This document shows, one piece after another, positions 8,614 through 27,854 of a stretch of 64,000 bases of DNA. Every line of letters begins with the position of its first letter. Within the stretch, counting starts at the first letter, position 1. Location of the stretch: assembly GCF_901542415.1 (NCBI RefSeq), contig NZ_CABEHV010000004.1, forward strand, positions 992,001 to 1,056,000, given 5' to 3'. Made by a program: the position numbers and the translations under genes. This DNA is from Streptococcus mitis (GTDB taxonomy: Bacteria; Bacillota; Bacilli; Lactobacillales; Streptococcaceae). The notes under the pieces are model-generated. The model had not been told where the DNA came from. It saw only the letters and a program-made list of their open reading frames with translations, and searched no databases.

Positions 8614-8736
8614 CAGATTTACTTTCTTTCTCTTTGCTTCACTAACACAATTAAGATTGTCAATTTCTGCTAATATTACCATAGCTGATTACCAACGCCT
8701 TTCCAACAAGGAAATTCAAAAAAATCTACAAATATC

Positions 8737-8764
8737 TTGAAAATTTTCACAATCATGCTATAAT
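8737..8764 (+). promoter_or_regulatory. Promoter of the T-box / MazG-like / thrS unit
   Basis: TTGAAA at 8737-8742 and TATAAT at 8759-8764 with a 16-base spacer, directly before the T-box leader. Confidence 0.75.
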
Positions 8765-8769
8765 AATCC

Positions 8770-8982
8770 ATAGAGACAAGTCACTTAGTTCCTTTCTACT
8801 AGAGAGTGCGTGGTTGCTGGAAACGCATAGGAGGCCTAAACTGATACTACTCGTTAGTTTTTTATGAAAACATAAAACGGTGGCCACGTTAGAGCCAATC
8901 AGAGGTGTCCCTCTTTTTTGAGGAACATAAATGAAGGTGGAACCACGTTGCGACGTCCTTTCGAGGATGTCGCAATTTTTTA
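8770..8982 (+). promoter_or_regulatory. T-box leader (tRNA-Thr-responsive riboswitch)
   Basis: The leader has AGAGAG-type stem I sequence near 8802 and GATACTAC near 8850, where ACT followed by A can be the threonine specifier. The T-box core AAGGTGGAACCACG is at 8933-8946. The terminator TTGCGACGTCC / GGATGTCGCAA plus T run is at 8948-8980. Uncharged tRNA should favour the antiterminator. The threonine call rests on the specifier and on thrS downstream. Confidence 0.88.
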
Positions 8983-8996
8983 TGAGGAGGCTAACT

Positions 8997-9320
8997 ATGG
9001 AGTTGCAAGAATTAGTGGAGCGCTGTGGGACAATCCGACAAGCTTATCACGAACTAGAAGTTAAGCATCATGATTCCAAGTGGACGGTAGAAGAAGACCT
9101 CTTGGCTTTATCTAATGATATTGGAAATTTCCAACGACTGGTGATGACAAAGCAAGGACGCTACTATGATGAAACACCCTACACACTGGAACAAAAACTT
9201 TCAGAAAATATCTGGTGGCTAGTAGAACTTTCTCAACGTTTGGATATAGACATTCTGACGGAAATGGAAAACTTCCTCTCTGATAAAGAAAAGCAATTGA
9301 ACATTAAGACTAGGAAGTAG
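8997..9320 (+). CDS. MazG-like protein between T-box and thrS
   Basis: Small protein of 107 aa resembling MazG-like nucleotide pyrophosphohydrolases. It is largely helical, with acidic helices (VEEDLLALSNDIGN near residue 31, LEQKLSENIWWLVELSQRLD near 67) where the family binds metal. The start is the ATG at 8997 behind GAGGAGG, directly after the T-box terminator; an upstream in-frame ATG at 8931 lies inside the T-box and is rejected. The gene sits between the threonine T-box and thrS (53 bases, no terminator seen), so its expression should follow threonyl-tRNA charging. Enzymatic activity is uncertain because the full EExxE pattern is not clear. Confidence 0.75.
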   Translation: MELQELVERCGTIRQAYHELEVKHHDSKWTVEEDLLALSNDIGNFQRLVMTKQGRYYDETPYTLEQKLSENIWWLVELSQRLDIDILTEMENFLSDKEKQLNIKTRK

Positions 9321-9373
9321 TCTGCAAAAAAGTCAATGCTTAGAAACTATGAAATAATAAAAAGGAGAACATC

Positions 9374-11317
9374 ATGATTAACATTACTTTCCCAGATGGC
9401 GCTGTTCGTGAATTCGAATCTGGCGTAACAACTTTTGAAATTGCCCAATCTATCAGCAATTCCCTAGCTAAAAAAGCCTTAGCTGGTAAATTCAACGGCA
9501 AACTCATCGACACTACTCGTGCGATCACTGAAGATGGAAGCATCGAAATCGTGACACCTGATCACGAAGATGCCCTTCCAATCTTGCGTCACTCAGCTGC
9601 TCACTTGTTCGCCCAAGCAGCTCGTCGCCTTTTCCCAGACATTCACTTAGGAGTTGGTCCAGCTATCGAAGATGGTTTCTACTACGATACTGACAATACT
9701 GCTGGTCAAATCTCTAATGAAGACCTTCCTCGTATCGAAGAAGAAATGCAAAAAATCGTTAAAGAAAACTTCCCATCAATCCGTGAAGAAGTAACTAAAG
9801 ACGAGGCACGTGAAATCTTCAAAAACGACCCTTACAAGTTGGAATTGATTGAAGAACACTCTGAAGACGAAGGTGGTTTGACTATCTACCGTCAAGGCGA
9901 ATATGTAGACCTTTGCCGTGGACCTCACGTCCCTTCAACAGGCCGTATCCAAATCTTCCACCTTCTCCATGTAGCAGGTGCTTACTGGCGTGGAAATAGC
10001 GACAACGCTATGATGCAACGTATCTACGGTACAGCTTGGTTTGATAAGAAAGACTTGAAAAACTACCTTCAAATGCGTGAAGAAGCCAAAGAACGTGACC
10101 ACCGTAAACTTGGTAAAGAGCTTGACCTCTTTATGATTTCTCAAGAGGTTGGTCAAGGGCTTCCATTCTGGTTGCCAAATGGTGCGACTATCCGTCGTGA
10201 ATTGGAACGCTACATCGTTGACAAAGAGTTGGCTTCTGGCTACCAACACGTCTACACTCCACCACTTGCTTCTGTTGAACTTTACAAGACTTCTGGTCAC
10301 TGGGATCATTACCAAGAAGACATGTTCCCAACTATGGACATGGGTGACGGGGAAGAATTTGTCCTTCGTCCAATGAACTGCCCGCACCACATCCAAGTCT
10401 TCAAACACCATGTTCACTCTTACCGTGAGTTGCCAATCCGTATCGCTGAAATCGGTATGATGCACCGTTATGAAAAATCTGGTGCCCTCACTGGTCTTCA
10501 ACGTGTACGTGAAATGTCACTCAACGACGGTCACCTCTTTGTTACTCCAGAACAAATCCAAGAAGAATTCCAACGTGCCCTTCAGTTGATTATCGATGTT
10601 TATGAAGATTTCAACTTGACTGAATACCGCTTCCGTCTCTCTCTTCGCGACCCTCAAGATACTCACAAGTACTTTGATAACGATGAGATGTGGGAAAATG
10701 CCCAAACTATGCTTCGTGCTGCCCTTGATGAAATGGGCGTGGACTACTTTGAAGCCGAAGGTGAAGCAGCCTTCTACGGACCAAAATTGGATATCCAGGT
10801 TAAGACCGCTCTTGGTAAAGAAGAAACACTTTCAACTATCCAACTTGACTTCTTGCTTCCAGAACGTTTCGACCTCAAATACATCGGAGCTGATGGTGAA
10901 GAACACCGTCCAGTCATGATTCACCGTGGAGTTATCTCAACTATGGAACGCTTCACAGCTATCTTGATTGAGAACTACAAGGGAGCCTTCCCAACATGGC
11001 TTGCACCACACCAAGTAACCCTCATCCCAGTTTCTAACGAGAAACACGTGGACTACGCATGGGAAGTAGCGAAGAAACTCCGTGACCGCGGTGTCCGTGC
11101 TGATGTGGATGAACGCAATGAAAAAATGCAGTTTAAGATCCGTGCTTCACAAACAAGCAAGATTCCTTACCAATTAATCGTTGGTGACAAGGAAATGGAA
11201 GACGGAACAGTCAACGTTCGTCGCTACGGCCAAAAAGAAACACAAACTATCTCAGTCGATGACTTTGTTCAAGCTATCCTTGCTGATATCGCCAACAAAT
11301 CACGCGTTGAGAAATAA
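9374..11317 (+). CDS. thrS: Threonine--tRNA ligase
   Basis: Charges tRNA-Thr in the cytoplasm (647 aa, normal length). The order is an N-terminal TGS domain (1-62), an editing domain with HSAAH near residue 74 and a later Cys/His region around CRGPH, a class II catalytic core with motif 2 RPMNCPHH near residue 332, and a C-terminal anticodon-binding domain from about residue 545. AAAGGAG precedes the ATG. It lies downstream of the T-box and the MazG-like gene and ends at a strong terminator. Confidence 0.97.
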
Positions 11318-11353
11318 GATATAAAACCTGGGATAAAATCCTAGCTACCTAAA

Positions 11354-11388
11354 AAGCAACAACTATTTCAGCTGTTGCTTTTTATATT
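11354..11388 (+). terminator. thrS terminator
   Basis: AAGCAACA and TGTTGCTT arms with an 11-base loop, followed by TTTTATATTTT. Confidence 0.8.
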
Positions 11389-11390
11389 TT

Positions 11391-11495
11391 TACTCAATGA
11401 AAATCAAAAAGCAAACTAGGAAGCTAGCCGCAAGCTGTACTTGAGTACGGTAAGGCGACGCTGACGTGGTTTGAATTTGATTTTCGAAGAGTATT
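11391..11495. repeat. BOX element (boxA-boxC type, no boxB)
   Basis: Begins TACTCAATGAAAATCAAAAA, contains AGCTAGCCGCAAGCTG and TACGGTAAGGCGACGCTGAC, and ends CGAAGAGTATTA. This matches the pneumococcal BOX family, and the copy lies at the left edge of the accessory pocket. Confidence 0.9.
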
Positions 11496-11572
11496 ATTTA
11501 ATCCGAGCTAGTAGTGATTGACCAAACCACCACACAAGATTTGCTTTCATGAGTTGGATAAGGTCAATATCC

Positions 11573-12622
11573 TCATTCCTTGTCTGCTTCATTTTCTTTT
11601 ACGAGATCTTTTTGTGAATCTTTTTCAGAGAGTTTTTGATCGATATACTTGTTAATGGTTTCATAAAATTCCTTGGTCATCTCACTATCTAATTTTGTCG
11701 AATTATGAACTTGATTGATTTTCAATTGGACAGATTGAATACCGTAAGAGGCTTGTTTTTGGTGGAGCGTTTCTAATTCTTCTTCTGAAATCGGATCTCC
11801 AACAACCGTCAAGACCAATTCATTGTTCCTTGACTTGTAGACTTGATTAATGACCGTGTGATTGGAGAACTCTTTTCCTACAAACTGTTTGATTCCTTCT
11901 TTTCGCGCTTGATCTATCGTCAGAGTGATTGCTGAATAGCTGGCTGGAAGAATCAATAATACAATCAAGGATAACAACCCAATTCTCATTTTAATATTTA
12001 ACTCTTTAAATGAACTTAAGGGAGATTTTCTCATCATAATTCTTGTTCCAACAATATTGGTTAGCATGATAAAAACACAGTTGATCAAGAAAAGATAGAG
12101 AGCTCCAAATAAAAATCGTACATTTCCATTAGCTAAACCATATCCTGCAGTGCAGATAGGTGGCATCAGAGCTGTTGCGATGGCTACTCCTGGCACGATA
12201 TTGTTTGCTTCTTTTTTCCTTGAACCAATTACACCTGCTATCCCACCAGCAATAGCGATGAGAACATCCCAAATGGTTGGAGAGGTTCGTGCAATCAATT
12301 CGCTACTTTCATAAGATAGGGGAGAAATCCAGAAATACAGAGCCGAGACAAGCAAACTGACCAATACTTGAGTAAATAAAACCTCTAGAGATTGCTTGAT
12401 TAAACGCGTATCAAAAATAGCTAAACCAAACCCCAGTCCAACAATCGGTGTCATAAGAGGGGAAATCAGCATGGCTCCAATAATGACAGCTGTTGAATTC
12501 ATATTTAAACCTATAGAGGCAATAAAAATCGCACACATCAAAATCACTGTATCTCTTAATCGAACATGAAGGTCATCATATAATTTCTCACGGTATTCAC
12601 GTGTTGAATAGTTTCCGTTCAT
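11573..12622 (-). CDS. DUF389 / TIGR00341-type membrane protein
   Basis: Integral membrane protein of 349 aa of the DUF389 family, whose function is not established. After a short hydrophilic N-terminus there are about six hydrophobic helices (residues 25-235) with the motifs MNSTAVIIGAMLISPLMTPI and GVAIATALMPPICTAGYGLA. A soluble alpha/beta C-terminal domain of about 110 residues follows, ending in a charged, Lys/Glu-rich tail. It stands alone, with a BOX element on one side and the ABC exporter on the other, in a stretch that I do not remember between thrS and the two-component system in pneumococci. Identity as a DUF389 protein is fairly sure; the substrate is unknown. Confidence 0.8.
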   Translation of the reverse strand: MNGNYSTREYREKLYDDLHVRLRDTVILMCAIFIASIGLNMNSTAVIIGAMLISPLMTPIVGLGFGLAIFDTRLIKQSLEVLFTQVLVSLLVSALYFWISPLSYESSELIARTSPTIWDVLIAIAGGIAGVIGSRKKEANNIVPGVAIATALMPPICTAGYGLANGNVRFLFGALYLFLINCVFIMLTNIVGTRIMMRKSPLSSFKELNIKMRIGLLSLIVLLILPASYSAITLTIDQARKEGIKQFVGKEFSNHTVINQVYKSRNNELVLTVVGDPISEEELETLHQKQASYGIQSVQLKINQVHNSTKLDSEMTKEFYETINKYIDQKLSEKDSQKDLVKENEADKE

Positions 12623-12912
12623 TGGTTACTCCTTTTATTTCATATAATCTTGTTTCTGCATGGATGATGGTAGATAGACTTCTGTTCAATCTTACATATT
12701 TTTCTTCTCACCTGTTATTCTTTTGAACATTATCTTTTAAGTATCCGTCAGTCCATCCTTAACATTATATCAAAAATTTTACAGTCTTTCTCTGACGAAA
12801 TTTATCAATTGAACAGATAGATGAAGCAAGAAATTTTTGTTTCCTTATCCGAAGAAGGAAAAACGGTATCTCCTGAACCTTAATACTATGCGTTTTATTC
12901 TTTATAATTTAG

Positions 12913-14424
12913 CTATTTCAAAATTACAAGTTCTCCATTCTTAATTTCCCAAACTTGGTCAAACTTACTTAATAATTCGTTTTGGCGATGTAAAGTAACA
13001 ATGACGGCACTTGGTAGTTCCAGAACTCTTTCCAATTCCATTTTAAACTGATTAGTATCCAAGGCAGAGAAAGGTTCGTCTAGGATAAGCAATGGATTTT
13101 TACGATTTTTCTCACGATTTAAATACATTCGTTGTTGCTGACCACCTGACAGGGATTGTGGTGGAATTTTTTCAAAATCTTCTTCTCTGAATTTTTCATT
13201 GAAACTATTGAATAGCGTTACATTATTTTCATAACTTGAAATAAATGTATGTTCTTGTTGCAGAATCATACCGAATCTTCCCCAAAGATGGTCCAAAACA
13301 AGCCCATCTAGCACAATTTGTCCTTCAAAATCTTCATCTGTTCCATTTAAAATGTTGAGAAGACTACTTTTTCCAGACCCATTCTTACCAATAAGCGCAA
13401 TTTTATCCCCTTTTTGAATCGTAGCGGAAGTAATTATCAATTTTGATTCTCCCAGTTGTTTGGAAATGTTTTTCAAAGTAATCGTATCAAAAGAATGTTG
13501 AGGTGCTTGAACTGAAACGGGTCTCCCAACAATGTTTTGAAAACTCTTGATTACAGGCTTTACGGACTCTAACATTTGTAAATCATAAAGGATTTCCTGT
13601 ATTGGTTCAGAAAAAGCATTAATATATCCGAAACTCGCCACCACCTCAGGAATACCGAGTTGCTGGTGAGATAGAGAGTAGGCTAAATAAATAAACAGAA
13701 CAAGACTAATGAATTCAAAAGAAACACCTGTCAATAAGATGCCTGTAATTTTTGTCAAACCATACTTAAAATACTTATCCTGCAAATTCTTTAGAGAGCT
13801 CTTTTGTTGATTCAAAAAATGCGACATAGTTAGTTTATTTACCAAATGATGTCCCATGAGCAAATCCTCCAAAGTTCGATAGTAATCTCCTTGTTTTTTC
13901 AAGTAAACCTGTCTACGATTAGCGGTCAACTTCCCAACGATTTTAGGAATTTGAATACTAATTCCAGTGGAAAAGATTAAAATCAGTGATACAATAGGAT
14001 TAATTGTTCTGCTAATAATGAAAGCGTAAATGATGATACGTAAAATTTGTTTGATAAAACTCATCAATGGAGGAAGGTAATCCTTTTCCAACGAATCTAG
14101 GTCATTAGATTGATAGGAAATATACTCTGCTACTGTTTTCTGCTTGAAATCGTGGTGACTGAGTCCCAGAAGTGAACGAAACCACTCATTTTTCAAAGTA
14201 GTCGAAAAGATAATCCCCTGCTTCCAATCAAGTATCATTTGGATATAGTTACAACTCAAATAGCCTGCCACTGACATAGAGTAACCATATAGAGCTACTT
14301 GATAATCCCCTTTGATTAATGCCTGCGTGAAATACGGTAACAAAGCTGTGCAGATATTCGATACTACACCAAAAAGAAAATTAAAGAAGAGATACCATCT
14401 AATAGTTTTAAGATATGGTAGCAT
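12913..14424 (-). CDS. ABC exporter, fused permease and ATPase (probable peptide exporter)
   Basis: Half-transporter of 503 aa with about six membrane helices (residues 10-290) fused to an ATPase. Walker A GKNGSGKSS is near 345, the signature SLSGGQQQR near 425, and Walker B LLILDEPFSALD near 447. There is no N-terminal C39 peptidase domain. The loop between Walker A and the signature is short, giving a compact ATPase. AAGGAG precedes the ATG, which begins only 15 bases after a decayed SPASM-type maturase remnant. Family and neighbours suggest export of a modified peptide; the frame is intact although its neighbours are broken. A drug or lipid substrate cannot be excluded. Confidence 0.82.
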   Translation of the reverse strand: MLPYLKTIRWYLFFNFLFGVVSNICTALLPYFTQALIKGDYQVALYGYSMSVAGYLSCNYIQMILDWKQGIIFSTTLKNEWFRSLLGLSHHDFKQKTVAEYISYQSNDLDSLEKDYLPPLMSFIKQILRIIIYAFIISRTINPIVSLILIFSTGISIQIPKIVGKLTANRRQVYLKKQGDYYRTLEDLLMGHHLVNKLTMSHFLNQQKSSLKNLQDKYFKYGLTKITGILLTGVSFEFISLVLFIYLAYSLSHQQLGIPEVVASFGYINAFSEPIQEILYDLQMLESVKPVIKSFQNIVGRPVSVQAPQHSFDTITLKNISKQLGESKLIITSATIQKGDKIALIGKNGSGKSSLLNILNGTDEDFEGQIVLDGLVLDHLWGRFGMILQQEHTFISSYENNVTLFNSFNEKFREEDFEKIPPQSLSGGQQQRMYLNREKNRKNPLLILDEPFSALDTNQFKMELERVLELPSAVIVTLHRQNELLSKFDQVWEIKNGELVILK

Positions 14425-14439
14425 ATACGATACTCCTTG

Positions 14440-14672
14440 CTAATGCGTTTTTTTACATATCGCAGAACAATCTCTACTATTCCCTATTTCAGATAGTGCG
14501 ATACTCGGACATTGAGTGCAATAATTGTAAATCACACAAGTACTGCCGTTTTTACTATCATTCAAAATATAATTTGCTATTTTGTAAAATATAGGTCTAT
14601 CCCATGTTTCTTTGATAGATGTAAAATGAATATTTCCAATACTTCTATTGAAAGTAAGCTTTTTCAGTTTTT
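14440..14672 (-). pseudogene. C-terminal remnant of a radical-SAM/SPASM peptide maturase
   Basis: On the minus strand an open stretch with no good start codon ends at a TAG at 14440. It reads GNIHFTSIKETWDRP, as in the SPASM region of radical-SAM maturases (GNI-x-SIKEIW pattern). A Cys cluster follows: CVIYNYCTQC, then DCSAIC just before the end. The whole N-terminal radical-SAM barrel with CX3CX2C is missing, so this is a deletion remnant. It directly follows an Xre remnant and sits 15 bases before the ABC exporter. The family call rests on motif recognition alone and is moderate; the broken state is clear. Confidence 0.55.
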
Positions 14673-14774
14673 CTAACGATTTAGGCTATTTCGTGACACA
14701 CCCACAATCCGTGAAAATTCTGGTTATATCAGATTATGTGATTTTCGTAAGAATTTTATATTGTCTCCAATCAT
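14673..14774 (-). pseudogene. N-terminal remnant of an Xre-type HTH regulator
   Basis: An ATG at 14774 behind AAGGAG opens MIGDNIKFLRKSHNLI and then meets TAA. The same frame continues PEFSRIVGVSRNSLNR and meets TAG. Restoring the stops gives a typical Xre helix-turn-helix (LTQPEFSRIVGVSRNSLNRYE-like). The first stop is one C-to-T change from the CAA glutamine codon normally found there. The remaining gene is absent and sequence passes straight into the maturase remnant, so a deletion joined the two. Confidence 0.7.
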
Positions 14775-15223
14775 GGCAGTCTCCTTTTACTTGATAAAAC
14801 TATTATCAACATTTAGAAATTAAAAATTGGTTCAAAATCAATAGAATGTGTGTATTCGATACATTCAATAAATTCTTGGAAACAGTTCTACACCAGTTAC
14901 ACAAATCTATATACACCTATCTCATTCAAAATAAAAAGAAAGCTGCAGTTCTTTTAATCCTGTATCAACGATTCATTCTGAAATCGAATAGGAGACATTT
15001 CCCAAGTCTACAATTCACTTCATCTCAAATTAATTTTTGTAATTCACCCTTAGATTATAGATTTTATACTCAACAAAAGTATAAAGCATACAAAACTTCA
15101 CTTTGAACCAGTATTTATACTATATTCTGTATTAAAAATTCTATTATTGGTTTTGTAAAAAACAGTCTTCAAATATCCTGAAATATAGCAAAAAGAGATT
15201 GGGTAAAAACTCATTGTCTCTTC
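14775..15223. other. AT-rich non-coding stretch upstream of the decayed regulator
   Basis: I see no credible gene. A plus-strand frame at 14846-15106 has no ribosome site, no family resemblance and the composition of random AT-rich DNA. A short inverted repeat TTTATACT / AGTATAAA at 15063-15085 might be an old operator. Confidence 0.4.
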
Positions 15224-16198
15224 TCACTCAAGGACTAAGTTCACTTGAGCAAACTGAATCCGCACTATCGTTCCTTCTCCAACCTCAGACTCGATGCGAA
15301 TCTGGTGCCCCAGTTCTTCAGAAATTTTCTTAGAGAGATAGAGGCCAAGTCCAGATGACTGCTGGGTTAGGCGTCCATTATATCCTGAGAAACCACGTTC
15401 AAAGACTCGGAGGACATCACTGTTTTTTATCCCGATTCCCGTATCCTTGATACAAAGCTCTTGCCCGTCCATATAAATCTCCAGACCACCTTCCTTGGTG
15501 TACTTGAGACTGTTTGAGATAATTTGTTCAATGACCACTAGTAGCCACTTCTTATCCGTCACGATTTCTTTATCAAGGTCATGTAGATTGACATTTAGTC
15601 CTTTTTGAATAAAGAAAAGAGCATATTTACGAATTATTTCCTTGACCAAGTCCTCAATTTGAACCTGCTTTAAGACCAAATCATCATGAAAACTTTCTAA
15701 ACGCAGGTACTGTAAAACTAGATTGGTATAGGAATCGATTTTGAAAATTTCCTGTTCTAACTGCTGCTTCAGTTGGCGGTCGGCTACTTCTGCAACTAAG
15801 AGTTGACTGGCTGCAATGGGGGTCTTTATCTGATGGACCCACAAGGTATAGTAATCCAGCAAATCCGTCAGTTTTCTTTCTGCGTCTGACCTCTGCTGAT
15901 AGAGTTCCATCTCACGCGCCTCTAATTTTTCTGCTAAAGCTCTTTCCAAAGGAGATTTGGCCTCCCTCTCCCCATAGAGAAGTTCCTGACGATAGACCTG
16001 CATTTCTACCAATATGTCCCAAGTGAAAAATAAGATGGTTACAAAGCAACACAAGAGGAAAAAATAGAGAAAGTAAATTCCCAAACTGGCAAATAAAAAC
16101 TGAAAGAGCAAAACTAGAAATGCTAAAGCAAGAAGATAGACAAACAGACGACTACGGGAGCGCAAATAATCTAGAAAAAATTGTTTCCAATCAAGCAT
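15224..16198 (-). CDS. Sensor histidine kinase, BceS-like intramembrane sensor (TCS01 type)
   Basis: Membrane histidine kinase of 324 aa. Two closely spaced hydrophobic helices (about residues 16-60) with almost no external loop are typical of intramembrane-sensing BceS-type kinases. The phosphoacceptor is in WVHQIKTPIAAS near residue 122, the N box is ISNSLKYT near 232, and the G boxes are IKDTGIGIKN and SSGLGLYLSKK. The start overlaps the response-regulator gene by eight bases, so the two are co-translated. By memory it corresponds to pneumococcal HK01, reported to control a Bce-type exporter encoded elsewhere. No transporter is adjacent here. Confidence 0.88.
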   Translation of the reverse strand: MLDWKQFFLDYLRSRSRLFVYLLALAFLVLLFQFLFASLGIYFLYFFLLCCFVTILFFTWDILVEMQVYRQELLYGEREAKSPLERALAEKLEAREMELYQQRSDAERKLTDLLDYYTLWVHQIKTPIAASQLLVAEVADRQLKQQLEQEIFKIDSYTNLVLQYLRLESFHDDLVLKQVQIEDLVKEIIRKYALFFIQKGLNVNLHDLDKEIVTDKKWLLVVIEQIISNSLKYTKEGGLEIYMDGQELCIKDTGIGIKNSDVLRVFERGFSGYNGRLTQQSSGLGLYLSKKISEELGHQIRIESEVGEGTIVRIQFAQVNLVLE

Positions 16199-16868
16199 GC
16201 TTCAGTCCGTACCCTATCCCTTTCTTGGTCTCGATAAATCCTACCAAGCCCTGCTCTTCCAACTTTTTACGCAATCGAGCTACATTAACAGATAGGGTAT
16301 TGTCATCAATGAAAAAGTCACTGTTCCAAAGCTCCCGCATCAGGTCATCACGCGCTACGATGTTGCCCGCATGCTCAAACAAAACGCGTAAAATCTGGAA
16401 TTCGTTCTTGGTCAAATTCAAGACTTGCCCTTGATAATGTAAGTCCATTGATTTGGTATTGAGGATAACACTAGCATATTCCAGTAAACTCTCGTCACGC
16501 CCAAACTCATAGGAACGACGCAACAAGCCCTGAACCTTAGCTAAAAGAACCTGCTGGTCAAAAGGCTTGGTCACAAAGTCATCCGCCCCCATATTGATTG
16601 CCATGACAATATCCATAGCCTGGTCTCTCGAAGACAGAAACATGATGGGGACCTTGGAAATCTTACGAATCTCCTGACACCAATGATAACCATTAAACAA
16701 AGGCAGTCCAATATCCATGAGAACCAGATGAGGTTCCGACTGAACAAATAGACTCAAAACTTCCATAAAGTCTTCTACCAGGACCACTTCAAATCCCCAT
16801 TCAGAGAGCATTTTTCCGACTTGTTGACGAATAACCTGATCATCTTCTACTAATAAAATCTTGTGCAT
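16191..16868 (-). CDS. OmpR-family response regulator (TCS01 type)
   Basis: DNA-binding response regulator of 225 aa. The receiver domain has the acidic pair in LLVEDD, the phosphorylated Asp in LVLMDIGLP near residue 51, and the conserved Lys in VTKPFD near 101. A winged-helix effector domain occupies the C-terminal half (TKNEFQILRVLFEHAG and RLRKKLEEQG). The start MHKILL at 16868 is chosen because AAAGGAG lies seven bases upstream; the frame is open for 13 more codons but has no better site. It is the first gene of the pair with the kinase. Confidence 0.92.
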   Translation of the reverse strand: MHKILLVEDDQVIRQQVGKMLSEWGFEVVLVEDFMEVLSLFVQSEPHLVLMDIGLPLFNGYHWCQEIRKISKVPIMFLSSRDQAMDIVMAINMGADDFVTKPFDQQVLLAKVQGLLRRSYEFGRDESLLEYASVILNTKSMDLHYQGQVLNLTKNEFQILRVLFEHAGNIVARDDLMRELWNSDFFIDDNTLSVNVARLRKKLEEQGLVGFIETKKGIGYGLKHA

Positions 16869-17023
16869 CTGATTCTCCTTTGCTATTATTATAACAGATT
16901 TTTCCATGCTAGAAGGTCTGAAACTGAATTTGAAAGAGCTTGTTTTTAGCTAGTACAAACAGGCAATGCTACTAGATAATTTGAGGGAAATTTGATAAGA
17001 TAATTAAAAAGAAAGGAGCTCTT

Positions 17024-19242: not shown

Positions 19243-19310
19243 TTCTTCCTCCTTTAATAACTACATTTTATCATAATTATCCGGTGTAAAAAAGGGGGCA
19301 TCCATCCCTC

Positions 19311-19748
19311 TTACTCCTTCATTTGACTCTCTGCGTCAGCCACGACTTGCTCTAGACTGGTCTGACCAAGTTCAGCCTCCATCGCCAACTGAATTCTCTC
19401 CAATTTTTGATCCAAAACATCATGAATATGAGCTCCTACAGGGCAATTTGGATTTGGATTGTCATGAAAACTGAAGAGTTGACCAGTCTTTCCAAGACAC
19501 TCAACCGCTTGATAAACATCTAAAAGACTAATGTCCTTGAGATTCTTAACAATCTCTGTCCCACCTGTTCCACGCGCTACTGAAATCAGCTCTGCCTTCT
19601 TCAACTGGGACAAGGTCTTTCTGATAATGACAGGATTGACCCCGACACTAGCAGCCAGAAAATCACTGGTCACCTTGCTTTCCTGCCCCTTGAGAGCAAT
19701 AATTATCAGCATATGAGTCGCAATGGTAAATCTACTTGGAATTTGCAT
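19311..19748 (-). CDS. Rrf2-family transcriptional regulator
   Basis: Winged-helix regulator of 145 aa. The N-terminal HTH is visible (SDFLAASVGVNPVIIRKTLS near residue 23, then the wing with ARGTGGTE). A single cysteine in PNCPVG near residue 97, next to a His-rich patch, stands where Rrf2 proteins of the IscR/NsrR type bind an Fe-S cluster with three Cys. With only one or two cysteines here, a cluster is unlikely and thiol sensing is possible. AAGGAG precedes the ATG. No partner gene is obvious; the phosphoesterase gene is upstream on the same strand. Confidence 0.88.
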   Translation of the reverse strand: MQIPSRFTIATHMLIIIALKGQESKVTSDFLAASVGVNPVIIRKTLSQLKKAELISVARGTGGTEIVKNLKDISLLDVYQAVECLGKTGQLFSFHDNPNPNCPVGAHIHDVLDQKLERIQLAMEAELGQTSLEQVVADAESQMKE

Positions 19749-19823
19749 CCTCTTCTCCTTTTTACGAGGCTCCCCTGCCTCTACTCTTCTTTTTCTTTTA
19801 TTATACCCTTTTTAGTTGTAATG

Positions 19824-20666
19824 TCAATCATTACCACCTTTTAACCAGGCATCTAATTCCCTATCATAGCCCTCTTTCTGGGCCAATTCTCTCAAAAATT
19901 CCTGATGATGAGTATGGTGGATACCATTGACCAGACTTTCATAATAAACCTCAAAATAGGGAAGTTTAAGATCTTTAGCCAGCTGCAATTCAGCTGCCAC
20001 ATCGTAGTCCACCCGTCGGAAGTCCATATCTACCAAACCCTTGTCATCAAACTCCAAAATCATATACTGGGCCCGTAAGTCCTTCCGTAACTGGGCATCT
20101 AGAAAGAAAGGTTGCCCAATCGAACCCGGATTGACAATCAATTGTCCACCAGTCCCATAACGAAGCAACTGCTGGTGAATATGACCATAAACAGCAATAT
20201 CACAAGGCGGATTGGTCACCAAGCGGTCAAAGTCCTCTTGTGCTCCAGTATGAATCAACTCACGCCCCCAATTCTTATCAGGCAAATGGTGGCTAATTCC
20301 CACCGTCAAATCCCCAAACTGACGATGAATCTGGAGCGGTTGATTGTGGAGCAGTTCAATTTCTTCTAGGGAGATTTCCTCTAAAACATACTGGCACTGG
20401 CGCAAGAGATAGCGTTGACTGGGACGAGTACTATCCAATTCCTTGCGGACACCATGCCAAAGACTGTCTTCCCAGTTTCCCAAAACTCTAGCCGTAATCG
20501 GTAATTGAGCCAACAAGTCCAAAATCCTTCTACGCCCTGTCCCTGGCATGAGAATGTCTCCCAAAAGCCAGTATTCATCCACTCCTAGCTGCCGAGCATC
20601 TGCCAAAACAGCCTCCAAGGCGGTGGTATTTCCATGAATATCTGAAAGAAGAGCTATTTTCGTCAT
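19824..20666 (-). CDS. Metallophosphoesterase family protein
   Basis: Calcineurin-like phosphoesterase of 280 aa. The metal ligands are in the order ALLSDIHGN (D-x-H) at the start, LLGDILMPG (GD) near residue 36, GNWED (GNxE in place of GNHD) near 65, HHLP near 125 and YGHIHQQ (GHxH) near 158. There is no signal peptide. A start at 20666 (MTKIALL) is better placed behind GAGGAG than the ATG two codons earlier. It is divergent from psaR. The substrate is unknown; the family includes YfcE-like phosphodiesterases and phosphatases. Confidence 0.86.
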   Translation of the reverse strand: MTKIALLSDIHGNTTALEAVLADARQLGVDEYWLLGDILMPGTGRRRILDLLAQLPITARVLGNWEDSLWHGVRKELDSTRPSQRYLLRQCQYVLEEISLEEIELLHNQPLQIHRQFGDLTVGISHHLPDKNWGRELIHTGAQEDFDRLVTNPPCDIAVYGHIHQQLLRYGTGGQLIVNPGSIGQPFFLDAQLRKDLRAQYMILEFDDKGLVDMDFRRVDYDVAAELQLAKDLKLPYFEVYYESLVNGIHHTHHQEFLRELAQKEGYDRELDAWLKGGND

Positions 20667-20718
20667 ATCCATCTCCTCGTTTTTTCTCTTGCAATAAGTA
20701 TAACATAAAAAGTCACAG

Positions 20719-20736
20719 CTAGAGAAATCTAGCTTT
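20719..20736. promoter_or_regulatory. Inverted repeat upstream of psaR
   Basis: AGCTAGA, GAAA, TCTAGCT followed by a T run, just before a TATACT -10 (20755-20760). There is no upstream plus-strand gene to terminate, so an operator is possible. Confidence 0.4.
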
Positions 20737-20777
20737 TTTTGATATACTAGATAAAGATATTAGACAAGAGGATACGA

Positions 20778-21428
20778 ATGACCCCGAATAAAGAAGATTA
20801 TCTAAAATGTATTTATGAAATCGGCATAGACCTGCATAAAATTACCAACAAGGAAATTGCTGCCCGCATGCAAGTCTCTCCCCCTGCCGTAACTGAAATG
20901 ATTAAACGGATGAAGAGTGAAAATCTCATCCTCAAGGACAAGGAATGCGGTTATCTACTGACTGATCTCGGACTCAAACTGGTCTCTGAGCTCTATCGTA
21001 AGCACCGCTTGATTGAAGTTTTTCTAGTCCATCATTTAGACTATACGAGCGACCAGATTCATGAAGAAGCTGAGGTCTTGGAACATACTGTCTCTGACCT
21101 GTTCGTGGAAAGACTGGATAAACTACTAGGATTTCCCAAAACTTGTCCCCACGGAGGAACTATTCCTGCCAAGGGAGAACTCCTAGTTGAAATCAATAAC
21201 CTGCCACTAGCTGACATCAAGGAAGCTGGCACCTACCGCCTGACTCGTGTGCACGATAGTTTTGACATTCTCAATTATTTGGATAAGCACTCACTTCACA
21301 TCGGTGATTCGCTCCAAGTCAAGCAGTTTGATGGCTTCAGCAACACCTTCACTATCCTCAGTAAAAACGAGGATTTACAAGTAAGTATGGACATTGCCAA
21401 ACAACTCTATGTCGAAAAAATCAACTAA
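20778..21428 (+). CDS. psaR: DtxR/MntR-family manganese-dependent repressor PsaR
   Basis: Metal-dependent repressor of 216 aa. The N-terminal winged helix (MTPNKEDYLKCIYEIG, HTH around ITNKEIAARMQVSPPAVTEM) is followed by a DtxR dimerisation domain with the metal ligands in HRLIEVFLVHHL near residue 76 and in EEAEVLEH near 97. A FeoA/SH3-like C-terminal domain follows. In pneumococci PsaR with Mn2+ represses psaBCA and other genes. psaBCA is present 9.4 kb downstream in this window with a palindromic site at its promoter. The start is the ATG behind GAGG. A terminator follows. Confidence 0.93.
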   Translation: MTPNKEDYLKCIYEIGIDLHKITNKEIAARMQVSPPAVTEMIKRMKSENLILKDKECGYLLTDLGLKLVSELYRKHRLIEVFLVHHLDYTSDQIHEEAEVLEHTVSDLFVERLDKLLGFPKTCPHGGTIPAKGELLVEINNLPLADIKEAGTYRLTRVHDSFDILNYLDKHSLHIGDSLQVKQFDGFSNTFTILSKNEDLQVSMDIAKQLYVEKIN

Positions 21429-21448
21429 TTTCTCAAGTAGCCTACCAA

Positions 21449-21479
21449 CCCTGAAAGTTTTATTTTCAGGGTTTTATTT
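21449..21479 (+). terminator. psaR terminator
   Basis: CCCTGAAA and TTTCAGGG arms with a 7-base loop, followed by TTTTATTT. Confidence 0.8.
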
Positions 21480-21486
21480 CTAACAT

Positions 21487-21515
21487 TTGATTTTACTCTC
21501 ATTTAGTTGTAGAAT
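21487..21515 (+). promoter_or_regulatory. pnuC promoter
   Basis: TTGATT at 21487-21492 and TAGAAT at 21510-21515 with a 17-base spacer. Confidence 0.65.
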
Positions 21516-21547
21516 GTTTGTAAAAAACAAGAAAGATAGTTTAACCT

Positions 21548-22258
21548 ATGAAGAAATCACTAAAAATTTTTGCTACATCCAAATGGTTTGACCTCTTTGG
21601 AGTTGCTCTGGTCGTTGGGATTGCGATTGCATCTGGTTACCTCAACTCCCGTCTTGATAAATTCGTAGACTGGGGACCATGGACAGCTCTTGTTCCCTTT
21701 GGATTGATTTCCGTAACCAACGTTGGGATTTCCATGTTGTCCACTCGTTTCACGGGGAAATTAAGCAAATGGGGAAATTACTTTGGTATTGTTAATACCA
21801 TTTTGTCCGGTGCTATTGATTATATCCTTGGAAATAAGGCGGCCATCATTACCTATCCCGTCACCTTCCTCATTTATACCTTTGCTATTAAGAAATGGGA
21901 AGCTTCGCAAGAAGGCAGACCCAACCAAATGAGCCAAAAACAGGTAAAATTGGCGGCCATCATCATTTCCATCATCGCCTTCCTCTTTGCCTTTGTGACA
22001 AACTTTATCGGCTATGGAGGAAAGATGAATCTCCTTGCCTATGTAACAACCATTGCCTTTGCACTCTCACTCATTGCCAATGCTTTTAACGCATTGAAAC
22101 TAACAACTCAGTGGGGCTTTTGGTTGATTTACAATTTCGTTCAGCTGACAAAAGCTGGTATTCAAGGAAATTTTGCCAATATCGGAAAATATATCTTTTA
22201 TATCCTCAATGCAATCGGAGCTTTATTTGTCTGGAATGATGAAGAGGTGGAACAATAA
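21548..22258 (+). CDS. pnuC: Nicotinamide riboside transporter PnuC
   Basis: Membrane protein of 236 aa of the PnuC family (PF04973), which takes up nicotinamide riboside as an NAD precursor. About seven hydrophobic helices are visible. Family features include the WxxW-type segment KWGNYFGIVNTILSGAIDY near residue 75 and TTQWGFWLIYNFVQL near 190. The positively charged N-terminus fits an inside location. It has its own promoter and no partner kinase gene next to it. Confidence 0.88.
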   Translation: MKKSLKIFATSKWFDLFGVALVVGIAIASGYLNSRLDKFVDWGPWTALVPFGLISVTNVGISMLSTRFTGKLSKWGNYFGIVNTILSGAIDYILGNKAAIITYPVTFLIYTFAIKKWEASQEGRPNQMSQKQVKLAAIIISIIAFLFAFVTNFIGYGGKMNLLAYVTTIAFALSLIANAFNALKLTTQWGFWLIYNFVQLTKAGIQGNFANIGKYIFYILNAIGALFVWNDEEVEQ

Positions 22259-22319
22259 GAAGGAAATCAAATAAAGAAATCTAACAGAATCTCCTTACTA
22301 AAATTTTTTATCATTTTAG

Positions 22320-22348
22320 TTGTAACTCCCATTCTTTTGGAGTAGAAT
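22320..22348 (+). promoter_or_regulatory. Promoter of the paired 137-aa membrane protein genes
   Basis: TTGTAA at 22320-22325 and TAGAAT at 22343-22348 with a 17-base spacer, followed by a GAAGGAGG ribosome site. Confidence 0.65.
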
Positions 22349-22377
22349 GAAAATAGATAAAAGAAGGAGGTCTTGTC

Positions 22378-22791
22378 ATGAAAAAACTCTTTAGAATCCA
22401 TTTTACAGCAATTGCAGTTATCGATTTGCTACTATTCGCATTTTTTAGCAAAAGACCCGAGACATCTTCGGAGTGGCTCTTGCTCTCTGGTTTTATTTTC
22501 CTCCTTGCTCAGAGTCTACTACTATTTCGCTTGGTTGTCCGACTCAAACATCAATTCGCTGAGATTTATCCTCAAATCAATAAAAAGATTCGCTTCTACT
22601 ATTTATGGGTTATCTCCATTGATTTTCTATTTTTTGTCCTTTTAACTTTCGTTAGTTCTCAGCGTTTTTCCTCTCTTATGCCAATCATCACTGCTTGTCA
22701 TTCTACTTTATATTATATGACAGCTAACTACTTAAGAGAAAACTATCAAGACTTTTACGATAAACACATCTCTTTATGGGAGTGTCTCTAA
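22378..22791 (+). CDS. Small membrane protein, unknown function (paralogue A)
   Basis: I recognise no named family. The 137-aa protein has four hydrophobic helices separated by short basic loops, no signal-cleavage site and no cysteine pair. It starts KKLFRIHFTAIAVIDLLLFAFF and ends DKHISLWECL. The next gene encodes a protein of identical length, with the same helix spacing and ending (KSISFWSIL), so the two are tandem duplicates and may form a heterodimer. AGAAGGAGG precedes the ATG; the shared promoter lies just upstream. Confidence 0.75.
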   Translation: MKKLFRIHFTAIAVIDLLLFAFFSKRPETSSEWLLLSGFIFLLAQSLLLFRLVVRLKHQFAEIYPQINKKIRFYYLWVISIDFLFFVLLTFVSSQRFSSLMPIITACHSTLYYMTANYLRENYQDFYDKHISLWECL

Positions 22792-22809
22792 GAAAAAGGA
22801 GGTTTTGGC

Positions 22810-23223
22810 ATGAAAAAAATCATCCATATCAGAACCATTCAACTCCTTATCATCGATGGAATTATGCTGATATTTTTGACATTTAAAGCGGGGCTTACTT
22901 GGGACTGGATTTTGATTTATAGCGGTTGGATCATTTTCTTTCATCCTGTTCTATTGACCTATCTTTCTAACCAACTTTGTGACCACTTTAGTCAACTCTA
23001 TTCCCAGATTAGACCAAGATTCTGGCGTTTTGCCTTACAAATCCTTCTATGGGATATCCTGATGATTCTCTCCTTGATATGTTTGAGTGGTGTGCCACTT
23101 TTCCTTCAGGGAACTCTCCTCATCCTAGGCCACCTCATCCCTTCCTATCGCATGAGTAAAATCCTGAAACAAGGCTTCCCAAAAGCCTATCAGAAATCGA
23201 TTTCATTTTGGAGTATTTTGTAA
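22810..23223 (+). CDS. Small membrane protein, unknown function (paralogue B)
   Basis: Also 137 aa with four hydrophobic helices, beginning MKKIIHIRTIQLLIIDGIML and ending KSISFWSIL. It aligns end to end with the preceding protein (matching length, matching ISxW ending, similar central FAEIYPQI/FSQLYSQI segment). It is 18 bases downstream, behind AAAGGAGG, in one operon, and followed by a terminator. Function unknown. Confidence 0.75.
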   Translation: MKKIIHIRTIQLLIIDGIMLIFLTFKAGLTWDWILIYSGWIIFFHPVLLTYLSNQLCDHFSQLYSQIRPRFWRFALQILLWDILMILSLICLSGVPLFLQGTLLILGHLIPSYRMSKILKQGFPKAYQKSISFWSIL

Positions 23224-23235
23224 TAGATGAGAAAA

Positions 23236-23262
23236 ACCAAGCCGTCTGGGCTTGGTCTTTCT
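23236..23262. terminator. Bidirectional terminator between paralogue B and dtd
   Basis: ACCAAGCC and GGCTTGGT arms with a five-base loop, between convergent genes, flanked by an A run on one side and CTTTC on the other. Confidence 0.75.
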
Positions 23263-23705
23263 TATCTATTTTTAGTATCAAGGATAATAGTGACTGGTCC
23301 GTCATTGACCAGCTCAACCTGCATATCCGCTCCAAAAATGCCTGTCTGAACGGGCACTTCTTGCGCTAATTTTTGATTGAAGGCATCATAGAAGTCTGAT
23401 GCCATATCAGGCTTGGCTGCACCTGTAAAGGCTGGACGATTGCCTTTCTTAGTATCCGCAAAGAGAGTAAACTGAGAAATAGAGAGGATTTCTCCTCCAA
23501 TATCTTTGACAGACAGGTTCATCTTGCCTTCTACGTCTGAAAAAATCCGCATGTTGATAAGCTTTCTCACAGCATAGTCCAAATCTTCCTCTCGGTCCTC
23601 TGGTCCAACACCAACCAGCAATAGGAGCCCCTGATTGATTTTTCCCTGAACCTGACCTTCTATACTCACTTGGGCTTTTGTAACCCTTTGGATAATGATT
23701 TTCAT
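23262..23705 (-). CDS. dtd: D-aminoacyl-tRNA deacylase
   Basis: Removes D-amino acids mischarged onto tRNA (147 aa, the usual length). The family signatures are [17 protein letters not shown] near residue 77 (with the SQFT motif) and NDGPVTI near residue 133, which holds the Gly-cis-Pro chirality filter in the form GP. It lies 29 bases downstream of relA on the same strand, as in many Firmicutes, and is probably co-transcribed with it. Confidence 0.95.
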
Positions 23706-23734
23706 AATAGCCTTTCTAGTAAGAGCTAGGGCAA

Positions 23735-25957
23735 TTAACCGTTAGTCCGTTTGACAGAGTAAACTTCTGGCACACTCTTAATCTTGTCCACGACCGTGGT
23801 CAATGTAGAGAGGTTGGCAATACCGAAGGACACATGGATATTAGCAAACTTCATATCCTTGGTTGGTTGGGCATTGACCGTTGAAATATTCTTGGTTGTG
23901 TTTGAAAGAACTTGCAGTACATCGTTCAATAATCCTGTACGGTTGAGACCATAGATATCGATATGGGCCATATACTCCTTATTTGAGTTTGAGTACTGGT
24001 CTTCCCATTCCACATCAAGGAGACGTTGCTCGTAGTTTTCTTGGGCGCGCAGGTTCATACAGTCCACACGGTGAATAGCCACACCACGGCCCTTGGTAAT
24101 GTAGCCGACAATATCGTCACCAGGTACAGGGTTACAACACTTTGCAATCCGCACTAGGAGACCTGAGGCACCTTCAATGACCACACCACCCTCATGCTTG
24201 ACCTTGAGGGTTTCTTTATTTTCAACCTTGACTTCGCCACCTTTGACAAGCTCTTCTGCTTCAGCCTTGGCCTTGGCACGCTCTTCTTCACGACGTTCCT
24301 TTTCAGTCAGACGGTTAAAGACGGTAATAGCACCGATTTCGCCAAAACCAATAGCCGCAAAGAGGGACTCTTCTGTCTTATAGCTGGTCTTTTGCAGAAC
24401 TTGGTCCATATGGCGCTTGTCCATGAATTTATTGGCCACATAGCCATTTTCTTGGAACTGGGCCATCAACATCTCACGACCCTTGTTGACAGACAATTCC
24501 TTATCTTGGTTTTTAAAAAACTGACGAATCTTATTGCGCGCCTTGCTGGTCTTAACCATGTTGAGCCAGTCACGGCTTGGCCCAAAGGAGTTAGGGTTGG
24601 TGACAATTTCAACCTGATCCCCTGTCTTGAGCTTGGTTGTCAGTGGAACCATACGACCATTGACCTTGGCACCAGTCGCTTTTTCACCAACTTTTGTATG
24701 GATTTCATAGGCAAAGTCAATCGGTCCTGAATCTTTTGGAAGTGAACGGACAGCTCCATCTGGGGTAAAGACGTAAATTTCCTCAGCCAGATAGTTTTCC
24801 TTAACTGAATCGACAAATTCCTTAGCATCATCAGCCTGGTCTTGGAGCTCCATCATCTCCTTGATCCAGTTCATCCCAATAGCTGATTCCTTGCTGTTAA
24901 CCTGCCCCTTAATACCTTTCTTATAAGCCCAGTGAGCCGCAACCCCGTACTCAGCCACCTCATGCATGGCCTTGGTTCGAATCTGGAATTCAATCGGTCC
25001 TTTTGGCCCATAAACAGTCGTATGGATAGACTGGTAACCATTAGCCTTACGATTAGCAATATAGTCTTTAAAGCGACCTGGCATCGGTTTCCAAAGCTCA
25101 TGCACATAACCAAGCATGGCATAAACATCACTTTGGGTATCTAAAATACAGCGAATAGCAATCAGGTCATAGATTTCCTCAAAACGTTTTCTCTTATCCT
25201 GCATTTTGCGGAAAATCGAGTAAATATGCTTGGGACGACCGTAAATCTTTCCATTTAGATGACGATCTGTCGTATATTCCTCTAATTTTGTGACCACCTC
25301 ATCCACCAAGGCTTCACGCTCTCTGCGTTTTTCCTTCATCATATGGGTAATCTTGTAAAACTCCGTTGGATTGAGATAACGGAATGATAGGTCTTCCAAT
25401 TCCCATTTGACACTGGAAATCCCCAAACGATGGGCAAGCGGGGCATAAATTTCCATGGTTTCTTTGGAAATACGCTCCTGCTTGTCTTTTCGAAGATGTT
25501 TCAGGGTCCGCATATTGTGCAAACGGTCAGACAGTTTGACCAAGATAACGCGGATATCCTCAGACATGGCCATGAGCATCTTGCGGTGGTTTTCAGCCAA
25601 TTGCTCTTCGTGAGACTTGTATTTAACTTTACCAAGCTTGGTAACCCCATCTACGATTACCCGCACATCAGGACCAAACTCTCTTTCCAAATCGTCCAAG
25701 GTCGCATCAGTATCTTCCACCACATCATGCAAGAAACCACAAGCTACTGTTACAGCATCCAACTTGAGCTTAGCTAAAATACCTGCCACTTGGATGGGGT
25801 GAATGATATAAGGCTCACCTGATTTGCGATATTGACCACTATGGCATTCAACGGCGTAAACCAAGGCCTTATGGACAAAAGCCACATCTTCTTCCGATAA
25901 ATATTTCTGTGTTAAAGCGACAACTTCATCGCCTGTTAAATTCACTTCTTTTGGCAT
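23735..25957 (-). CDS. relA: Bifunctional (p)ppGpp synthetase/hydrolase RelA/SpoT (Rel)
   Basis: Long RSH protein (740 aa) that makes and degrades (p)ppGpp in the stringent response. The order is the HD hydrolase (HPIQVAGIL near residue 52 and HDVVEDT near 77, metal residues intact), a synthetase domain with [11 protein letters not shown] near residue 308, TGS ([13 protein letters not shown] near 393), a zinc-finger/helical region with [10 protein letters not shown] near 606, and a C-terminal ACT domain. Both catalytic halves look intact, so it should be bifunctional. It is followed by dtd. Confidence 0.96.
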
Positions 25958-26284
25958 CTCTACTCTCCAATTCTTCCTACCATTTTATCACTTTTTTAAG
26001 AATATGAAAACTAGAAAAAGAGGATTCTGAAGCTATTCAATTTGTTGGAACGTATGATAGAATAAGATTCAAACTTAAAAAATAAAATTATCTGATTTTC
26101 ATCTAACTTTTTTGAAATATAGTCTACGCTAAAAGTTAGTGAAATGAAAATACATTCTTCTTTTTTCAACAAGAAAAGGTTTGATATTTTGGTAATTTTC
26201 TAACCTTTTTAGTGTATAATGGTAATATAAACAGTTTTTTTACGATAATTACTGAAATTTCATCTCTCTAGAAAGGCATCTCAT
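25958..26284. promoter_or_regulatory. relA / amidase divergent intergenic region
   Basis: No gene is seen. The region is AT-rich and contains an inverted repeat CTAACTTTT / AAAAGTTAG (26104-26139, 18-base loop). A TATAAT -10 at 26215-26220 for the amidase gene has no good -35. Transcripts for the divergent relA and amidase genes must start here. Confidence 0.45.
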
Positions 26285-27742
26285 ATGAAATCACACAAAG
26301 GACTGACACTTGTAGCTTTGGCTTTTCTTGGACTAACAAACCAAGTCGTTTTGGCTGATGAAACAAGTCACTCTACTACTAACCCTATGACTAGTTCAAC
26401 TAGTAGCTCAATAAATACTTCCACTAGTCATTCTACTAACAGTTCTACAAATACTTCTGATAGTAGTTTTCAAGCTAGTACTGAAACTTCGTTGAGCACA
26501 GCTAGTTCAAGTGAACAAGAAACCAAGCCATCTCTTTCGACAGAAACTAAACCCAATCAACCTATACAAACTGGCTGGGTAAAAGAGGGGAACAAGTGGA
26601 CTTTTTATAGTCAAACTGGGGTCAAATTTACAGATACTCTCTATGATGGTTATTTCTTTGATAGTCATGGCTACTTGCTTGAAAACACTTGGTACCAAAT
26701 GGGAAATAATTGGTACTATATCAATGGTTCAGGTAAATATTTAGCCAACCAATGGAGTCAAATCAATGGTAAGTGGTATGCTTTTGATGACTACGGTAGA
26801 ATGCTGGCCAATGTCTGGAAAGGCGATTACTACCTCAAATCCAGTGGTGCTATGGCAGATAAGGAATGGGTCTACGACCAAAGCTACTCTAGTTGGTTTT
26901 ACCTCAAATCTGGCGGACGCTATGCCCAAAAACAATGGATTGGTTCCTACTACCTCAAATCTGGTGGCTACATGGCCCACAAAGAATGGATCTACGACCC
27001 AGACTATCAAGCTTGGTACTATCTTAAGGACGATGGTGTGTATGTTACAGGTACCTATACCGTGGACGGTAAAAACCAGCTCTTCCAAGGGGATGGAAAA
27101 TGGGTCCGTGAGTTAACACAAGGTTTTCAAAAAGGACACTACTCTAAAACTATCTTTCTCGATCCAGGTCACGGTGGTAAGGACCGCGGGGCTTATTACT
27201 ATGGCATAGCTGAAAAAGAATTGAACCTACAAGTTTATCGTAAGCTACGTAAACGACTAGAAGGACTCGGCTATACCGTTCTCACCTCTCGAGATAGTGA
27301 TATAGACGTTGATTTTATTACCGAGCGTTCTCGTATGGTCAACAAGACCAATGCTGACTTTTTCATCAGCCTTCATTTCAATGCAAAAGGGAATGATACA
27401 ACCGTTAATCTGGGTATCCAGACCTATTCTTACAAGGATGAACCTGGTTTCCCCAGCAAGATTAACAAGGATTGGCACAACAATCCTGAACGGATGAGTG
27501 AAAGTAATCGTCTCGCAGCCGATATCCATTCTTCACTGCTAGCTGAAACTGGAGCTAGAGATGCTGGGCTCTTGCAAGCAACATTTGCTGTTCTCCGTGA
27601 AACAGCTAAACCAGCTGTTTTGCTAGAGATGGGATATATGGATAATCCAGAAGAAAACCAAAAAATCCGCAGCAGTGACTACCAAGATAAACTAGTTGAA
27701 GGGATTATCAAGGGAATCCAAAAATATTATGCTGGAAATTAA
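26285..27742 (+). CDS. Choline-binding-type N-acetylmuramoyl-L-alanine amidase (Amidase_3)
   Basis: Secreted cell-wall hydrolase of 485 aa. A signal peptide (residues 1-24, cut after VLA) is followed by a Ser/Thr-rich linker to about 90. Aromatic/glycine repeats of the choline-binding type follow (about 95-275, with units such as NNWYYINGSGK and SSWFYLKSGG). The C-terminal Amidase_3 domain (PF01520) has the zinc residues FLDPGHGG near 292, EKELNL near 310, SLHFNA near 360, and the catalytic Glu in LLEMGYMDNP near 450. It should cleave the MurNAc-L-Ala bond while bound to choline teichoic acid. The known pneumococcal LytA uses a different amidase family. It is monocistronic and probably accessory at this site. 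Confidence 0.88.
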   Translation: MKSHKGLTLVALAFLGLTNQVVLADETSHSTTNPMTSSTSSSINTSTSHSTNSSTNTSDSSFQASTETSLSTASSSEQETKPSLSTETKPNQPIQTGWVKEGNKWTFYSQTGVKFTDTLYDGYFFDSHGYLLENTWYQMGNNWYYINGSGKYLANQWSQINGKWYAFDDYGRMLANVWKGDYYLKSSGAMADKEWVYDQSYSSWFYLKSGGRYAQKQWIGSYYLKSGGYMAHKEWIYDPDYQAWYYLKDDGVYVTGTYTVDGKNQLFQGDGKWVRELTQGFQKGHYSKTIFLDPGHGGKDRGAYYYGIAEKELNLQVYRKLRKRLEGLGYTVLTSRDSDIDVDFITERSRMVNKTNADFFISLHFNAKGNDTTVNLGIQTYSYKDEPGFPSKINKDWHNNPERMSESNRLAADIHSSLLAETGARDAGLLQATFAVLRETAKPAVLLEMGYMDNPEENQKIRSSDYQDKLVEGIIKGIQKYYAGN

Positions 27743-27750
27743 AGCAGTTT

Positions 27751-27783
27751 AAGCCTCGAACTAACTCGAGGCTTATTTTTTAT
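27751..27783 (+). terminator. Terminator after the amidase gene
   Basis: AAGCCTCGA and TCGAGGCTT arms with a 6-base loop, followed by ATTTTTT. Confidence 0.85.
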
Positions 27784-27854
27784 CCAAACCATCTTCTTTC
27801 TAGATCTATTTCCTTTTCCAGCTTATTCTCCCCAACTGTGCTATACTTAATTTA

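Follow-up and report, generated by a model that had tools for sequence, protein, structure and literature searches.

A probable relic of an SSH-type RaS-RiPP cluster beside an intact ABC exporter in Streptococcus mitis and related streptococci

The locus lies in a window of 64,000 nucleotides from a Streptococcus mitis contig (NZ_CABEHV010000004.1, positions 992,001 to 1,056,000) and reads on the minus strand in the order broken Xre start, Cys-rich open frame, exporter (Table 1). From the ATG at 14774 the translation runs MIGDNIKFLRKSHNLI, stop, PEFSRIVGVSRNSLNR, stop, KN, stop. The sequence-only reading had described this piece as an ATG-opened Xre-type helix-turn-helix broken by TAA and TAG, which we could confirm, a TGA being in frame as well. 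The second frame, open from about 14649, contains GNIHFTSIKETW, CVIYNYCTQC and DCSAIC and ends at 14440, 15 bases before the exporter ATG at 14424; an open stretch with a Cys cluster at this distance from an intact exporter had also been noted and was found again on the minus strand. Walker A, LSGGQ, Walker B and H-loop motifs are all present in the exporter. The 60 solved-structure matches listed, of 137, were general ABC proteins, and the best NCBIfam match was the streptosactin exporter GggC (NF050039), likewise a RaS-RiPP exporter, of which family the window protein is not a member (91 bits against a cut-off of 750). A promoter scan of the window upstream of the exporter gave sites no more numerous than in shuffles.

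Table 1. Features of the exporter locus in window coordinates
Feature	Position	Strand	Basis
Intact ABC exporter of the SSH-cluster type, 503 aa, orphan here	12913..14424	-	PF00664 + PF00005
Relic, C-terminal tail of rSAM2 (residues 264-329) with part of the SPASM Cys cluster	14440..14649	-	tblastn
Broken start of an unrelated Xre helix-turn-helix gene, adjoining the relic	14650..14774	-	frame stops; 158-aa regulator matches
Non-coding stretch from histidine kinase to Xre piece; may contain the exporter promoter	14775..15223	-	
Whole stretch missing from 14 related genomes and from the second copy in the own genome (limits approximate)	12873..15215	-	

The 78-aa open stretch had no Pfam match at E<=1 and its best NCBIfam score was only 13.8 bits (cut-off 370). 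Since Pfam and NCBIfam alone gave nothing usable, the relic was identified only via comparison with complete loci. By tblastn the stretch aligned, with 70% identity (E 2e-22), to rSAM2, the intact radical-SAM/SPASM protein of a complete cluster, over its residues 264-329; this match bears out the earlier proposal of a SPASM-maturase remnant beside the exporter. In the complete cluster the intact rSAM2 tail occupies the same place, just before the homologous exporter. One Cys that is conserved in the intact rSAM2 copies is Gly in the window relic.

Other strains had been expected to carry the complete system, and six loci with precursor, two radical-SAM genes and exporter were indeed detected among 284 Streptococcus genomes. 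According to the record labels they belong to Streptococcus gordonii DD07 (G055), S. rubneri DSM 26920 (G186), S. mitis DD26 (G144), S. pseudopneumoniae 163_SPSE (G088), Streptococcus sp. DD10 (G089) and Streptococcus sp. M334 (G258, locus C1). The gene order is Rgg, PqqD-like protein (PF05402), rSAM1, 41-aa precursor, rSAM2 and exporter, with 3.66-3.68 kb from the start of Rgg to the exporter; in G089 only Rgg residues 117-290 were matched, the upstream sequence being masked. In the proteins of G186, on which this was tested, both rSAM1 and rSAM2 have PF04055 and PF13186. The precursor of the same genome, MAKVFKKPQLVVKTPTVVVSSTKSALCSGGSSHIVVDTSSN, reached 95 bits with the NF050043 model ('SSH motif RaS-RiPP peptide', cut-off 45), which substantiates the idea of a decayed RiPP locus. 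Scores above this cut-off were obtained in 6 of the 284 genomes, the same ones that have complete synthesis loci, and two further genomes gave a sub-threshold score of 21 bits. With the SSH RaS-RiPPs (NF050043; PMC13361665) the complete relatives share the SSH precursor, radical-SAM maturases, Rgg and a homologous exporter, whereas of this set the window retains just the exporter and one maturase tail.

About 0.2 kb of rSAM2 and the intact exporter are retained in the window, and precursor, working maturase and Rgg are missing. A deletion of more than 1 kb with the exporter left intact had been proposed; the large deletion stands, its extent does not, as nearly the whole cluster was lost. Two radical-SAM genes and the PqqD-like protein of the complete clusters go beyond the gene set considered in that proposal. 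Searches of the own genome gave no match to the SSH precursor (NF050043, >45 bits), to a SPASM maturase (a search positive in 8 of 14 control genomes) or to rSAM1 (a search run without a positive control), and by tblastn no Rgg match was obtained in the 17 kb surrounding the window exporter. That the own genome holds a further cluster copy elsewhere was rejected, as neither rSAM1, SSH precursor nor SPASM matches were obtained. Because the own genome has no precursor, the window locus is classed as a relic and not as a member of the SSH RaS-RiPP clusters; judged by sequence comparison, it is almost certainly derived from such a cluster.

The Xre fragment had been taken for the regulator of the system. 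This was ruled out. The regulator of the complete clusters is an Rgg (PF21259, TIGR01716), and in relatives the counterpart of the Xre piece is a 158-aa regulator gene of its own (73-79% DNA identity over 120-185 bases), encoded several kilobases away from cluster or exporter. We therefore regard the Xre piece as a neighbour brought into contact with the relic rather than as a cluster member.

Two genomes carrying the window-type exporter, G162 and G107, look like an earlier or alternative stage of decay. Both keep an open 291-aa Rgg, followed before relic and exporter by the Rgg-downstream element AGTGCA-AT-TGGGAC and a promoter-like sequence, as in complete loci, and their rSAM2 tail is longer, starting from residue 225. 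They also have a fragment that resembles, by eye, another part of the 158-aa Xre regulator gene. Between the two Rgg genes 5 synonymous and 4 non-synonymous codon differences were counted, too few for any constraint to be read from them.

Exporter homologues at E <= 1e-60 were present in 43 of the 284 genomes. Group A comprises 27 genomes with 99.6-100% protein identity to the window exporter, the own genome included; group B comprises nine genomes with 78-79%, among them G096, where the gene is split over contigs (pieces with 76-82%); group C comprises five further genomes with a 75% copy, a sixth such copy being present in the group A genome G258. The remaining two genomes had exporter fragments only. 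The window exporter, directly after the rSAM2 tail, is 75-79% identical to the exporters of complete SSH clusters. A full-length exporter without adjacent synthesis genes was found in 35 of the 284 genomes: 27 of group A, seven of group B (G093, G085, G261, G248, G251, G249, G025) and one of group C (G078). Neither these 35 orphans nor the five complete loci with a full-length exporter include the split gene of G096, the truncated exporter of G258 C1, or the fragments in G169, in G243 and of the second G261 copy. One of the orphan-exporter genomes, G258, has complete synthesis genes elsewhere.

Nineteen records matched at 100%; by their own labels 12 of them are S. mitis, and the other labels include S. 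pseudopneumoniae, S. hohhotensis, S. shenyangsis and S. thalassemiae. The group B orphans are labelled S. parasanguinis (G085, G093, G249) and S. peroris ATCC 700780 (G025), G261 is a near match to Streptococcus sp. HSISM1, and the group C orphan G078 is labelled Streptococcus sp. SK643. The group B exporter of S. peroris (locus L052) sits among other genes; about 4.4 kb upstream of it there is an Rgg-like regulator (26% identity), and the interval holds several unidentified ORFs. On the exporter tree, which has weak support for 18 of its 27 inner branches, three changes are required to place the complete and orphan labels, two of them forced by well-supported branches. A phage origin was rejected, as phage records gave no exporter match at E<=1e-60.

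The histidine kinase adjacent to the locus was found at >=94% identity in 41 of the 284 genomes (in one over 284 of 324 residues). The exporter was present in 27 of these and absent from 14, where the kinase is followed by the gene of a 349-aa membrane protein (5 genomes) or directly by the 647-aa ORF that we take to be thrS (9 genomes). The exporter is not essential in this group, since 14 of the 41 genomes live without it.

The relic served as an internal control for selection on the exporter. Among the 27 group A copies, 47 synonymous and 18 non-synonymous variants were observed (18/65, p < 1e-11; expected non-synonymous fraction 0.70-0.78 for transition weights 1-5), superseding an earlier count on 15 copies (27 synonymous, 10 non-synonymous). 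The junction type of the window recurs in 22 genomes, six of them with small indels near the junction, and this strictest set gave 43 synonymous and 17 non-synonymous variants (28% against 72% expected, p 3e-12). Depletion was likewise found in five group B orphans that have no relic (31 synonymous, 16 non-synonymous; 16/47, p 1e-7); the latter two tests used transition weight 3. All these tests assume that variants arose independently, an approximation in view of recombination and shared descent. Across 195 alignment columns from 24 genomes the relic had 28 segregating sites and a nucleotide diversity of 0.021, close to the exporter piS of 0.0206, and the exporter piN was 0.0014 in the same genomes; G073, G233 and G228, with shorter relics, were dropped for both, and the last 20 alignment columns were omitted. 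Pairwise ratios were 0.03-0.08 within the group A orphans and 0.10-0.28 within those of group B, compared with 0.12 between the producers G186 and G089. The depletion of non-synonymous variants, the relic changing at the synonymous rate and the lack of a SPASM match in the own genome together argue that the exporter is selected without its partners, and on these sequence data the orphan exporter is very probably functional and under selection. This kind of system, the SSH RaS-RiPP, is already known; the repeated keeping of its exporter under selection is the new part.

As to the present role of the orphan exporter, we lean with moderate confidence, and by analogy, towards resistance to an SSH-type peptide released by neighbours. 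Self-protection had been one of the suggested reasons for keeping the exporter, and it gains indirect support from the signs of selection and from the conserved membrane half. Complete clusters would make a modified peptide harmful to related streptococci, and their exporter would both secrete the peptide and clear the cell of it, as McjD does for microcin J25; loss of the synthesis genes with the pump kept would leave a resistant non-producer, whose orphan exporter would expel SSH product entering the cell. We counted in favour of this role the complete clusters and the identity of their precursor, the 35 orphans against 6 synthesis loci, the depletion of non-synonymous variants, the drift of the relic, the few SPASM matches, the conserved membrane half, the Rgg of G162 and G107, the McjD precedent and the occurrence of producers in the same oral species group, strains of which include carriers of complete clusters. 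Counted against it were the 14 of 41 genomes without exporter, the promoter scan that did not exceed shuffles, and a result on tryglysin: induction of the tryglysin operon, predicted transporter included, left S. mutans unprotected (PMC8092268). The same study found no immunity factor for tryglysin in S. mutans. According to PMC13361665, several streptococcal RaS-RiPPs inhibit producers or relatives, and for SSH peptides the entry reads 'Function not characterized'. More tentatively, the exporter might be the immunity factor so far lacking for the SSH RaS-RiPPs, with oral streptococci repeatedly dropping synthesis and keeping the pump, and with SSH peptides acting as antagonists.

The main rival to resistance is recruitment of the exporter to another substrate (peptide, lipid or drug) after the peptide genes were lost, with selection acting on the new role. 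The substrate cannot be read from purifying selection alone. SPASM matches were absent in 30 of the 35 orphan genomes, which speaks against such recruitment, with the proviso that proteins too divergent for the model could escape; the other five were the relic in G162, the relic and a 153-aa frame in G107, a 455-aa frame in G228, a 461-aa frame in G092 and the complete cluster in G258. The large frames of G228 and G092, both of group A, could make a different peptide. With the exporter halves set at residues 1-300 and 310-503, the membrane half, where the substrate site is expected, is 78.1-81.0% identical between the window exporter and those of the producers G055, G186 and G089, and the ATPase half 70.1-75.8%. 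The membrane half is likewise the more conserved one between the producers G055 and G186 (81.5% and 72.2%). As the membrane half is not much faster-changing, these sequences fit an unchanged substrate in the orphans, and we consider a new substrate rather unlikely.

The exporter could also be a recent leftover on its way to decay, too young to have broken. The near identity of the group A copies would agree with this, as would the fragments and truncations seen elsewhere (G169, G243, second G261 copy, G258 C1). Against it, the relic has drifted at the synonymous rate while non-synonymous sites of the exporter vary about 15-fold less, the depletion persists in the 22 junction-sharing genomes when singletons are counted by themselves (28 synonymous, 15 non-synonymous; 15/43, p 5e-7, transition weight 3), and none of the 35 orphan exporters has a premature stop, full length having been a classification criterion; this explanation is already disfavoured and appears improbable. 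That the Cys-rich frame is a functional small protein working with the exporter is very improbable. In favour of it, the matched stretch is free of stops in 26 of 27 group A loci (tblastn, one match split in two); against it, the relic varies like synonymous sites, differs in length among genomes (tails of about 38-40 residues in G073, G233 and G228, the last with a frame-shifted end), has indels in its 3' A-run and in the window copy lacks a Cys.

The likeness to McjD concerns the proposed resistance role only, that of an ABC exporter of a RiPP which would also protect the cell; McjD exports microcin J25 and gives self-immunity (PMC5641919). The window exporter has the complete membrane and ATPase domains that such a role requires, the class of peptide differs, and McjD is not named among the 60 listed of the 137 solved-structure matches. 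Orphan immunity is known for other bacteriocins, and at bacteriocin cheater loci such as blp in pneumococcus protection is kept after production is lost. Those are class II bacteriocins with dedicated immunity proteins, whereas here a RaS-RiPP exporter would protect. We found no report of orphan immunity for RaS-RiPPs in the literature covered, which leaves out most subscription journals and the original SSH description. Selection for a pump in strains that have stopped making its peptide is evidence from nature that something it exports is met and is costly. If resistance is its role, the orphan exporters would map who is attacked by SSH peptides. Their repeated retention under selection makes the question of how streptococci are protected from RaS-RiPPs directly testable via one gene.

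In Streptococcus sp. M334 (G258; loci L092 and L093), which has complete synthesis genes, only 77 aligned codons of the cluster exporter precede a stop, and another contig carries an orphan exporter of group A that is intact. This combination is suggestive, as a single case in a draft genome where the truncation could be a sequence error.

A complete SSH-type RaS-RiPP cluster was also seen on a Macrococcoides bohemicum plasmid (NZ_CP079985.1, 72099-87556; L143). The annotation gives a PqqD family protein, a radical SAM protein, a 40-aa peptide that scores 86 bits against NF050043, a second radical SAM protein and an ABC transporter with 56% identity to the window exporter; no Rgg is annotated in this stretch, for which the gene table is incomplete. 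For SSH, the table in PMC13361665 names streptococci only, and literature matches for Macrococc- with RiPP and radical SAM concern other peptides.

Near C4:2092000-2104000 the own genome carries kinase, membrane protein and thrS once more, there without the exporter. They are part of a second, rearranged copy of much of the left half of the window: segments 8708-12821, 15218-16922 and parts of 19297-34256 recur with 92-99% identity between G000:C4:2066043 and 2104000, near the end of the same contig. A merged second strain and a real duplication are both possible, with 4.11% contamination reported. At about 27852-27968 the window has a repeat of about 118 bases, which underlies most of the 66 own-genome matches of that region and resembles a BOX-type element.
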